Shown here in pieces: positions 34,481 to 39,505 of a stretch of 64,000 nt of DNA. Made by a program: the position numbers and the translations under genes. Source of the stretch: Halobaculum limi (lineage in GTDB: Archaea; Halobacteriota; Halobacteria; Halobacteriales; Haloferacaceae). The stretch's first letter is position 1. Each line of letters begins with the position of its first letter. The stretch spans positions 930,001 through 994,000 of the forward strand of contig NZ_CP120468.1 of the NCBI RefSeq assembly GCF_029490015.1, in the 5' to 3' direction. Under the pieces are notes generated by a model, which made no database searches, had not been told where the DNA came from, and saw only the letters and a list, made by a program, of their open reading frames with translations.

Positions 34481-35248
34481 ATGCAACGCTCCACGTTCGT
34501 CGACCGACTCGACGAGACACTCGACACCGACGCGTACAGCGACCTCGACGCCTCGCCGAACGGCCTCCAAGTCGGCACACGCGAGGGTGACGTGACGCGC
34601 GTCGCCTTCGCCGTCGACGCTGTCGAGGCGACGGCGCGGGAAACCATCGAGTGGGGGGCCGACCTCCTCGTCACTCACCACGGGATGATCTGGGGCGGCC
34701 TCGACCGCGTGACCGGCCGCGAGTACGACCGCATCGAACCGCTCGTCGCCAACGACGTCGCCCTGTACGTCTCGCATCTCCCCCTCGACGGCCACCAGGA
34801 ACTGGGCAACGCCGCCGGCGTCGCCGACACCCTCGGCCTCGTCGACCGCGACCCGTTCGGCGAGATGGGCCCCGAACACGTCGGGCAAGCCGGTGTCGCA
34901 CCCGACGGACTCACACGCGAGGCGGTCGCCGACACGCTGGCGGCGGACCTCGACCACGCGGGCGAAGGAGTACAGGTGCTTCCGTTCGGCCCCGACCGTA
35001 TCGACACCGTCGGCATCGTCACCGGGAGCGGCAGCGACTGGCTTCGCGAGGCTGAATCCCGCGGCCTCGACGCCCTCGTCACGGGCGAGGGGAAGGGGAA
35101 GGCGTACCACGAGGCACGCGAGGCGGGCGTCAACGTGTTCCTCGCGGGCCACTACGCCACCGAGACGTTCGGCGTCCGGTCGCTGCAGGCGCTCGCAGAC
35201 GAGTGGGGCCTGGAGACGCGCTACATCGACCACCCGACCGGACTGTAG
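34481..35248 (+). CDS. Nif3-like dinuclear metal centre protein
   Basis: A 255-aa NIF3-family protein. The metal-binding motifs THHGMIWGG, YVSHLPLDGH and AGHYATETFG match the dinuclear site. Hexameric family members are linked to GTP cyclohydrolase-like folds; the cellular role is unknown. It sits between speB and the photosensory operon. Confidence 0.9.
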   Translation: MQRSTFVDRLDETLDTDAYSDLDASPNGLQVGTREGDVTRVAFAVDAVEATARETIEWGADLLVTHHGMIWGGLDRVTGREYDRIEPLVANDVALYVSHLPLDGHQELGNAAGVADTLGLVDRDPFGEMGPEHVGQAGVAPDGLTREAVADTLAADLDHAGEGVQVLPFGPDRIDTVGIVTGSGSDWLREAESRGLDALVTGEGKGKAYHEAREAGVNVFLAGHYATETFGVRSLQALADEWGLETRYIDHPTGL

Positions 35249-35358: not shown

Positions 35359-37632
35359 GTGTCTCACGCGATGCAATTCACAGACGTCTGGGGGTCGTTG
35401 GTCCCAGACAGACTTCGCCGTCGATACGCGGCGAAGTTGACGGTCGCGTTGCTGGTGGTGGTCGTTCTCACGGTCGCCTTCGGTGCGGTGGTACAGGCGC
35501 AGACGGAGGCGCAACTGCGGCAAGACGTCGACGAGGAACTGTCGACCACGGCCGCGGTTCGGGCGGACACGCTCGATACGTGGCTCAGCGGCGTTCAGAA
35601 GCAGACCGTCCTCACGTCCCAACACCCGGCGATGGTCTCCGGCGACCTCGACCGGGTGAACGGTCACCTCGAACAGTTGCAGGTGAGCGGTGCGATTCCC
35701 GCCGGTGTCGCCGCGGTCCACTACTACGACACCGCGGACAAGCGCATCGTCGCGTCGACGAGCGACAAGATGGTCGGCGTCAGTCCGGCCGACCAGGGCG
35801 CGCCGTTCGCACAGACCCCGCCGACGTTCGACGGCGCCGACGATACGCACGTCACCGACCCGTTCGAGGTGCCCGTCGTTGACCACCCGGTCGTCGCGGT
35901 CGTCTCGCCGGTACCGGGCGCGGAGAACCGCGCGGTCATCTACATGTTGAACATCGAGACGCACGCGTCGGCGCTCGCGGGCACCTCCGGCACGGAGACG
36001 ATGGTCGTGGACGCCGACGGCGAGTTCGTCGTCCACCCGGACGCGTCGCAGATTGGCGAGGCGTTCGCGGCCGCCGATGCACTGCTCGGTGCGTCCGACC
36101 TCGTCGAGCGAGACGGGCAGGTGATGACGTCGGCGAACGTCGTCTCGACCGACTGGACGGTCGTCACGCGAACGCCGGCGGCACAGGCGTACGCCCTCGG
36201 TGACCGCGTCACCTCGAATATTCTCGGCCTCATCCTGTTGACCGTCGTCGGCCTCTCGGTCGTCGGCGTCACCATCGGGTCGAACACGGTCGTCGCTCTC
36301 CGGCGACTCGCGGACACCGCCGACGCCATCGCCGGTGGCGACTACGAGGCAGGGATGGAGACGAACCGCGTCGACGAGGTGGGTCGGGTCGTCGACTCCG
36401 TCGAGACGATGCGCGACTCGCTTCGCTCGACGATCGCAGAGGCCGACGACGCACGTGCGGAGGCCGAACGCGCCCGTGCCAGCGCACAGGCCAGCGCCGA
36501 CGCCGTCGAGGAGACCGCCGCCGAGTACGGCGCGGTGATGCGGTCGGTCGCCGACGGCGACCTCACCCGCCGGGTCGACGCCGACACCGACAGCGCCGCG
36601 ATGCGTGCGGTCGGCGAGGCGTTCAACGAGATGGTCTCGGCGATCGAAGACACCATCGCGGACGTGAAGCGGTTCTCCGGCCGCGTCGTCGACGAGGCCG
36701 AGGTCGCCGAGACGAACGCCGCGGAGGTTCGCGAGGCCAGCGAGTCGGTCGCCGTCTCCGTCGACGAAATCGCAGACGGTGCGGACGAACAGACCGGTCA
36801 CCTCCACGACGTCGAAGCCGAGATGTCGGACCTGTCGGCGTCGGCCGAGGAGGTCGCGTCGACGGTCGTCTCCGTCTCTGAACGCGCGAGCAGCGCAAGC
36901 GAGGCCGGCGAGTCCGGCCAACAGACTGCCGAGGAAGCGCTCGCCGAGATGGACGCTGTCCGCGAGCGAACGGCCGAGACGATGGCCGAACTCGAACAGT
37001 TGGACGACGAGGTGGCCGAGATCGGTGAGATCGCGGAGGTCATCGGCGACATCGCCGAGCAGACGAACCTGCTCGCACTCAATGCCTCCATCGAGGCCGC
37101 CCGCACCGGCGCGGGCGGCGACGGGTTCGCCGTCGTCGCAGACGAGGTGAAGTCGCTCGCGGAGGAGACGAAAGAGTCCGCGGAGGCGGTCGAGGCGCGC
37201 ATCCACCGCGTGCAAGCCCGCACGGGCGACGCCGTGGAGGGGATGCGTGCGACCGACGACCGCGTGCGGGCGGGCGCGGAGACGGTCGAGGGAGCGATCG
37301 ATTCGCTGTCGACCGTCGCCGGGCACGTCGACGGCATCGACGACGACCTCTCGGAGATCGAACGCGCGACAGAGCAACAGGCCGGGGCCGCCGAGTCCGT
37401 CGTCGGGATGGTCGAGGAAGTCGCCGCCATCGGCGACGAGACCACGGCCGAGGCCGCCGAGGCCGCGGCCGCGACCGACCAGCAGACGGCCGCCCTCGCC
37501 GACGTCGACACCGCCGCGACCGACCTCGCGACGCGGGCACGACGGCTCCGGGGCCTCCTCACGGAGTTCGACGTCGCCGCCGGCGCGACGTTGGAGACGA
37601 CTGCCCGCGGCCACACGGAGGCTGACGACTGA
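35359..37632 (+). CDS. htr: Sensory rhodopsin transducer (HtrII-like methyl-accepting protein)
   Basis: A 757-aa chemotaxis transducer. TM1 (about 25-48), an extracellular sensor-like domain (about 49-280), TM2 (about 286-310), a HAMP region and a long cytoplasmic coiled coil follow in order. The hairpin tip [20 protein letters not shown] and [13 protein letters not shown] are the kinase-control region. Size and large outer domain are closer to Halobacterium HtrII (about 765 aa) than to HtrI. The rhodopsin gene starts one base before its stop ends. The start could also be ATG 35371. Confidence 0.92.
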
Positions 37633-38351
37633 TGACGGCGTTCACGACGGACCTGTGGCTGTGGCTCGGCTTTGCCGGGATGGCCTTGGGGACGGTGCCG
37701 CCGCTGTGGCAACTGCTGGTCGACTCCGAGCGACGAACCCACTACCTCGCGCTCGCGGGCATCACGGGCATCGCGGCCCTCGCGTACGCGGGGATGGCGC
37801 TCGGTATCGGGACGGTCACCGTCGACGGCCGCCCGCTGTACGGCCTGCGGTACGCCGACTGGCTGGTGACGACGCTGCTGTTGGTCGGCTACCTGTGGCT
37901 GTTGGCCGACGCCGACCGCCGGACGCTCGGTCGCGTCCTCGCACTCGACGCAGCGGTCATCCTGCTGGGTATCGCGGCGGTTGTCCTGCCGACGCCGATT
38001 CGGTTCGCCGCCTTCGCCGCCGGTGGGGTGGCGTTTCTCGCACTCGCGCGCGACTTGATCCGAACGCTCCCGGCGCGGGCGGGCACGACCGACGCCCGGC
38101 GACTCGCGACGTTCGCGAAACTCCGCAACCTGACGGTCGTGTTGTGGACGCTGTACCCGGTCGTGTGGCTGCTCGGCCCCGCGGGACTGGGGCTGTTGTT
38201 CCCATCGGCGGAGGTACTCGTGTTCGTCTACCTCGACGTGGTGGCGAAGGCTGGGTTCGTCATCATCGCGGTGAACTGGGTCGCTGGCGTCGCCGGGTCG
38301 GCCGACACGGACGACACCCCCGCGGACGCAGGCGTCGTCTCTGCCGACTGA
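37632..38351 (+). CDS. sop: Sensory rhodopsin
   Basis: A 239-aa seven-helix retinal protein. Helix G carries the retinal Lys206 in YLDVVAKAGF. The counterion Asp76 sits in RYADWLVTT, and the proton-donor position of bacteriorhodopsin (D96) is Tyr87, so it is a sensor, not a pump. Y175-P176 and WLLGPAGLGLLFP resemble Natronomonas sensory rhodopsin II. Odd points: Ala205 precedes Lys206 where SRII has Thr, and the helix-C proline is Leu82. It pairs with the preceding transducer; signal transfer goes to CheA/CheW. Confidence 0.92.
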   Translation: MTAFTTDLWLWLGFAGMALGTVPPLWQLLVDSERRTHYLALAGITGIAALAYAGMALGIGTVTVDGRPLYGLRYADWLVTTLLLVGYLWLLADADRRTLGRVLALDAAVILLGIAAVVLPTPIRFAAFAAGGVAFLALARDLIRTLPARAGTTDARRLATFAKLRNLTVVLWTLYPVVWLLGPAGLGLLFPSAEVLVFVYLDVVAKAGFVIIAVNWVAGVAGSADTDDTPADAGVVSAD

Positions 38352-38443: not shown

Positions 38444-39505
38444 ATGAGCGACGAGGGTCACGACGGCGACGACCACGAACACGACGATACGGAGTACGAG
38501 ACGCCCCACCGCGAGGCGTTCGACCACGACCCGCTGGGGCACACGCGCGTCTCCGGCGGGATGAGCGTCGGCCAGTTGGTCGAGCAGTACGGCCACGCCG
38601 GCATCGGCGCGGAGTCGGTCCACGGCGCGGCGGACGTGCTCTCGGAGATGTGGGCCGACGACGACTGCACGGTGTTCCTCTCGTTGGCGGGTGCGATGGT
38701 GCCGACGGGGATGCGTCGCGTCGTCGTCGACCTCATCCGCGACGGCTACGTCGACGCCCTCGTCACGACGGGCGCGAACCTCACCCACGACGCCATCGAG
38801 GCCATCGGCGGCAAACACCACCACGGCGAGGAGCGGCAGGAGGGCAAGACCCTGCGCGAACACGATGAGCAACTCCGCGACGAGGAGGTCGACCGCATCT
38901 ACAACGTCTACCTCCCGCAGGAGCACTTCGCGGAGTTCGAGTCGCACCTCCGCGAGGAGGTGTTCCCGCCGCTTGCCGAGCGAGACGGTGCGGTCAGCAT
39001 CGCCGAGTTGTGCGCGGAGTTGGGTCGGGCGAACGCCACGGTGAACGACCGCGAGAACGTCGAGGAAGGGGCCGGCGTCGCCGCCGCCGCGTACGAACAC
39101 GACGTGCCGGTGTACTGTCCGGCAGTGCAAGACTCCGTCCTCGGGCTACAGGCGTGGATGTACGCACAGACTTCGGATCTGACGCTCGATGCGCTGGCGG
39201 ATATGACGCCGCTGACGGACCAGGCGTTCGAGGCAGACACGGCTGGCTGTCTGCTCGTCGGCGGCGGTGTCCCGAAGAACTTCACCCTCCAGACGATGCT
39301 CGTCACGCCGCGAGCGTACGACTACGCGGTGCAGGTGACGATGGATCCGGAGGCGACCGGCGGCCTCTCGGGGGCGACGCTGGAGGAGGCGCGGTCGTGG
39401 GGGAAGTTGGAGAAAGACGCGCGGAACGCGTCGGTGTACGGCGACGCGACGGTGTTTCTGCCGTTGCTCGTCGCAGCGGCGCGCGAACGTGTCGAAGCCG
39501 AGTAG
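38444..39505 (+). CDS. dhs: Deoxyhypusine synthase
   Basis: A 353-aa DHS. Landmarks are the TTGANLTHD block and the catalytic Lys region ARSWGKLEKDAR, corresponding to Lys329 of the human enzyme. DHS transfers the aminobutyl group to aIF5A Lys36 (here with spermidine or agmatine, as haloarchaea lack much spermidine). N-terminal acidic/His extension (about 1-25) is species-specific. With aIF5A and the agmatinase it forms a hypusine set. Confidence 0.92.
   Translation: MSDEGHDGDDHEHDDTEYETPHREAFDHDPLGHTRVSGGMSVGQLVEQYGHAGIGAESVHGAADVLSEMWADDDCTVFLSLAGAMVPTGMRRVVVDLIRDGYVDALVTTGANLTHDAIEAIGGKHHHGEERQEGKTLREHDEQLRDEEVDRIYNVYLPQEHFAEFESHLREEVFPPLAERDGAVSIAELCAELGRANATVNDRENVEEGAGVAAAAYEHDVPVYCPAVQDSVLGLQAWMYAQTSDLTLDALADMTPLTDQAFEADTAGCLLVGGGVPKNFTLQTMLVTPRAYDYAVQVTMDPEATGGLSGATLEEARSWGKLEKDARNASVYGDATVFLPLLVAAARERVEAE

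Follow-up and report, generated by a model that had tools for sequence, protein, structure and literature searches.

A Halobaculum sensory rhodopsin II without the helix-C proline or the Thr204-site hydroxyl, encoded beside an HtrII-type transducer

Background

The locus described here raises the question of whether a rhodopsin that differs from sensory rhodopsin II (SRII) at two sites held essential is still an SRII, and whether it could serve the HtrII-type transducer encoded beside it. The model against which it is judged comes from Natronomonas pharaonis SRII (NpSRII). According to a review (PMC3274258), photoisomerisation in NpSRII brings the retinal C14 into a clash with Thr204 and alters the Thr204-Tyr174 hydrogen bond, and mutating Thr204 or Tyr174 is reported to disrupt negative phototaxis; the same review states that A215T gives bacteriorhodopsin (BR) signalling, which two further changes strengthen. 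The accepted distinction between SRII and a proton pump leans on Thr204 in that review and in PMC11992208. A crystallographic study published in 2025 linked the stiffness of helix G and the long photocycle to Thr204, and Thr204Ala, in combination, made the NpSRII photocycle more than 100-fold faster (PMC11992208). The T204A mutant of ppR is red-shifted by 8 nm (PMC6197263). Pro91 of BR has been termed essential, and mutating it slows the dynamics of the protein (PMC12983209). A literature search for Halobaculum returned no paper on a sensory rhodopsin and no functional data on an SRII of this genus.

Gene pair and genomic context

The window, a stretch of 64,000 nucleotides, was taken from a Halobaculum genome of 3.48 Mb, and both genes of the pair lie on its forward strand. 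The transducer gene htrII (35359..37632) has 757 codons as listed from a GTG start, with an in-frame ATG at 35371 as the likelier start, and its orthologues in three other Halobaculum species are 70-80% identical. The rhodopsin gene sopII (37632..38351) encodes an SRII of 239 amino acids, and its start overlaps the htrII stop in the sequence TGATG. The pair is flanked in all four species by a Nif3-like gene and a deoxyhypusine synthase gene (34481-35248 and 38444-39505 of the window); these two genes are adjacent without the pair in 7 of 11 Halobaculum genomes. Four rhodopsins were found in the source genome, namely a BR-like pump, a halorhodopsin, a sensory rhodopsin I (SRI) beside a transducer and the SRII of the window, together with CheW-domain genes and archaellins.

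The first-pass annotation had described a transducer of HtrII size with a large outer domain, and this description was borne out by the length of the reading frame and by its domains. An extracellular Cache-like domain (aa 53-270; 35515..36168) was matched by Pfam dCache_1 with an E value of 1.9e-7 and a score of 31.3 bits, a weak match because it lies below the Pfam cut-off of 45. It is followed by a HAMP domain (aa 310-356; 36286..36426; E 8e-12) and by an MCP signalling domain (MCPsignal, aa 508-691; 36880..37431; E 4.2e-40), whose tip of 19 residues (37048-37104) is intact when aligned with relatives. In the second transmembrane helix (TM2), Gly298 (36250..36252) is aligned with NpHtrII Asn74, the partner of SRII Tyr199. 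Glycine is the usual state at this position in Halorubrum HtrII as well, which ruled out Gly298 as a clade-specific partner change. Strict co-variation between SRII residue 204 and HtrII residue 74 was absent, alanine in the rhodopsin being paired with Asn, Gly and Ser in the transducer. Changes specific to the Halobaculum HtrII clade include Val301 in TM2 and Met333 and Val344 in the HAMP domain.

Residues of the rhodopsin and their distribution

The sopII protein was matched by PF01036 (E 1.4e-49), and a search of NCBIfam gave no rhodopsin model matching it. Reading of the DNA codons confirmed the residues named in the first-pass annotation: the counterion Asp76 (GAC, 37857-37859), Leu82 (CTG, 37875..37877), Tyr87 (TAC, 37890-37892), and Ala205 (GCG, 38244-38246) followed by the retinal Lys206 (AAG, 38247-38249). 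By alignment, Leu82 replaces the helix-C proline (Pro81 in NpSRII, Pro91 in BR), and Ala205, the first residue of the segment 38244..38249, occupies the position of NpSRII Thr204. The Schiff-base complex is complete, with Lys206, Asp76, Arg73 and Asp202 all present. Trp172, Tyr175 and Tyr200 are also retained, the two tyrosines being the equivalents of NpSRII Tyr174 and Tyr199 and invariant in 125 other SRIIs. In the AlphaFold model (pLDDT 90.4), helix C is continuous from residue 71 to 92. The best matches in a PDB sequence search were NpSRII entries (E about 5e-45), and a fold search with the predicted model likewise placed NpSRII ahead of BR (TM 0.87 on the query, 1.5 A). A sequencing error or frameshift behind Leu82 and Ala205 was ruled out by the agreement of four species, the three other Halobaculum genomes having identical states at both sites.

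Residue counts were made against the same 125 other SRIIs, drawn from publicly available genomes of a single order and a few from outside it. The helix-C site is Leu in all four Halobaculum SRIIs and Pro in each of the 125 others, and a scan of 170 genomes of the family and of a sample of 392 from the order for the DNA pattern RYxDWxxTT-Leu found it only in Halobaculum. This proline does not set SRII apart, because pumps share it. The residue before the retinal Lys is Ala in the four Halobaculum SRIIs, whereas it is Ser or Thr in 113 of the 125 others and Ala in the remaining 12; a hydroxyl residue at this site is thus the usual SRII state and not a criterion of the family. Alanine there is scattered over the SRII tree and requires at least five changes between Ala and Ser/Thr. 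Nine residues are common to the four Halobaculum proteins and rare elsewhere (at most 3/125): Phe14, Gln27, Gly54, Pro68, Leu72, Leu82, Gly86, Trp89 and Arg140. Four of these (Leu72, Leu82, Gly86 and Trp89) lie with the counterion Asp76 in the helix-C stretch at 37845..37898 (predicted helix 71-92), and the chance of four or more falling there at random positions, computed post hoc, is about 0.006.

The helix-C proline has also been lost in certain SRIs as a separate event. The SRIs at L039/L243 (Halobaculum G355), L040 (Halobaculum G392) and L244 (G242, of the same family) have Ala at this site, in the motif RYLDWFVTTA, and two of the three are in Halobaculum. Genome G355 additionally encodes a BR-like protein without the retinal Lys (L048:1486-2223, reverse strand; LDLAAT) in an intact frame of 245 codons, with Gly and Ala at the sites of BR Asp85 and Asp96; it is possibly a type-1 opsin lacking the retinal Lys, as described in PMC4915679.

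The 12 other SRIIs with Ala before Lys (L102, L117, L118, L121, L131, L134, L135, L137, L138, L140 and the Gln-counterion proteins L125 and L136) all adjoin an HtrII-like gene, and for nine of them the MCP tip was shown to be normal. They share these features with the Halobaculum protein, but have kept the helix-C proline and occupy other positions in the tree. Within this set, the counterion Asp is replaced by Gln in the SRII-like L125 (G285) and L136 (G024) (RAQWATP and KGQWATP), and the transducer adjoining L136 has an altered tip, KTNILAVNARIESSR.

Among characterised systems, the SRII-HtrII pair of Halobacterium salinarum (locus L165) resembles that of Halobaculum in having an HtrII with an extracellular domain and an intact MCP tip adjoining the rhodopsin, and its SRII has an Asp counterion, a Tyr at the BR Asp96 site and a place in the same rhodopsin clade. 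It differs in the helix-C Pro and the Ser before Lys of the rhodopsin, and in the Ser of its HtrII where Halobaculum has Gly. The N. pharaonis pair (PDB 1h2s, 5jjn and others) is the closest solved structure by sequence and fold; unlike the Halobaculum pair, it has Thr204, Pro81 and Phe86 in the rhodopsin and Asn74 in a transducer without the large outer domain.

Placement among the sensory rhodopsins

Class placement was based on a maximum-likelihood tree of 113 rhodopsins, combined with approximately unbiased (AU) tests. The four Halobaculum SRIIs formed one clade (support 100/99) within a 49-row clade that also includes H. salinarum SRII (98/98), while a single clade of all SRIIs was weakly supported (67/15). 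A placement of the Halobaculum protein outside all other SRIIs was rejected (p-AU 0.0046). A tree setting the four outside the remaining H. salinarum-type SRIIs was not rejected (p 0.154). Identity of the Halobaculum SRII is about 50% to other Haloferacaceae SRIIs, compared with 38-39% to SRI and BR. A basal branch of the sensory rhodopsins, the rhodopsin L139 (G011), was found to combine the proton-donor Asp of BR with the SRII-type Tyr199 and Thr204.

Since SRI and BR likewise have Ala in front of the retinal Lys, and since forcing the four Halobaculum SRIIs to group with SRI was not rejected (p-AU 0.148), though the constraint tree shifts a long SRI branch, an intermediate between SRI and SRII or a member of another sensory class (SRM, middle rhodopsin) had to be weighed. 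SRI-HtrI does share this Ala and the Tyr at site 87, but the pocket residues Val109 and Gly131 of the Halobaculum SRII correspond in SRI to Met or Phe and to Ser or Ala, and SRI has Phe at the Tyr200 site. The best tree does not group the two, and the genome's own SRI sits elsewhere beside its own transducer. SRM is paired with a transducer, HtrM, that lacks an MCP domain (PMC6450946), whereas the transducer here has one. With the rejected outside position, the support for the H. salinarum-type clade and the higher identity to SRIIs also standing against it, an intermediate or other sensory class is scarcely probable. The spacing of Asp76 and Tyr87, earlier taken as an SRI trait, does not serve as one: Tyr at this site is the commonest state among the other SRIIs (89/125), and NpSRII has the same spacing in Asp75/Phe86. 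For these reasons, and given the tree and the AU result, the proposal of a mixed subtype in the first-pass annotation was abandoned, while its alternative wording, an otherwise unusual photosensor, is upheld by the counts for Leu (0/125) and Ala (12/125). The phylogeny that it had suggested as a check did place the protein inside a standard SRII clade, but members of that clade with the same residues were not found beyond Halobaculum. As judged from sequence, then, the pair is a genuine SRII-HtrII and not an SRI/SRII intermediate.

Retention and output of the pair

Pairwise dN/dS among the four Halobaculum sopII genes (Nei-Gojobori) was 0.26-0.41, with every one of the six pairs below 1, and these ratios may be too high because G+C codon bias probably lowers dS. 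At the level of codons, a ratio below 1 shows that the SRII protein has been kept; it says nothing on signalling through HtrII. A decaying, non-functional relic would agree with the loss of two conserved residues and with the finding that 7 of 11 Halobaculum genomes lack the pair at this place, but is very improbable given a gene open in four species at these ratios, a helix C and retinal-Lys segment near-invariant among them, the retention of the retinal Lys, Asp76, Arg73, Trp172, Tyr175 and Asp202, and an intact HtrII. A receptor that has been kept with a changed output, whether weak, modulatory or attractant, following loss of the relay residue, is unlikely, though less so. It would accord with the disruption of negative phototaxis by Thr204 and Tyr174 mutations in NpSRII (PMC3274258), with an HtrII site facing Tyr199 that is Gly and not Asn, and with the clade-specific Val301, Met333 and Val344; however, the Gly is usual in Halorubrum HtrII and so not special to the Halobaculum clade, and the sign of an output cannot be told from sequence.

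Proposed working

The preferred reading, which is considered probable, is that the pair is a working SRII-HtrII light sensor with output to the chemotaxis system, in a form specific to Halobaculum with a rebuilt helix C and no Thr204 relay. In such a sensor, blue-green light would isomerise the retinal on Lys206, the Schiff-base proton would be accepted by Asp76, helix F would then tilt, and the resulting change would travel through TM2 and HAMP of the transducer to CheA at its tip. The NpSRII relay, steric and hydrogen-bonded, from retinal C14 by way of Thr204 to Tyr174 could not work as such with Ala at position 205, and the signal would therefore have to follow what remains of the common path (Trp172, Tyr175 and Tyr200), as happens in SRIs with Ala at the same site. 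Helix C is envisaged as repacked around the lost proline by Leu72, Leu82, Gly86 and Trp89. A modest red shift is predicted and, from the Ala alone, a photocycle faster than that of an SRII with Ser or Thr; the net photocycle is uncertain because T204A speeds it and proline loss slows it. That the Halobaculum SRII signals is something that we infer, as are the sign of its output and its kinetics.

Conclusions

The Halobaculum SRII is, by alignment, a naturally occurring variant at two sites regarded as essential. Among the SRIIs sampled, what is new is the loss of the proline, which was seen in no other; Ala at the Thr204 site taken alone is not unique to Halobaculum. An SRII-HtrII pair kept without both residues offers a natural test of the generality of the accepted light-signalling model, and the repeated change from Ser/Thr to Ala in other HtrII-linked SRIIs suggests that what was found in one species may have been over-generalised. 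It is tentatively proposed that signalling through HtrII may proceed here with neither the helix-C proline nor a hydroxyl at the Thr204 site, the rebuilt helix C replacing the Thr204-Tyr174 relay. If this were true, the Thr204 relay, held to be essential, would become one option among several in SRIIs.
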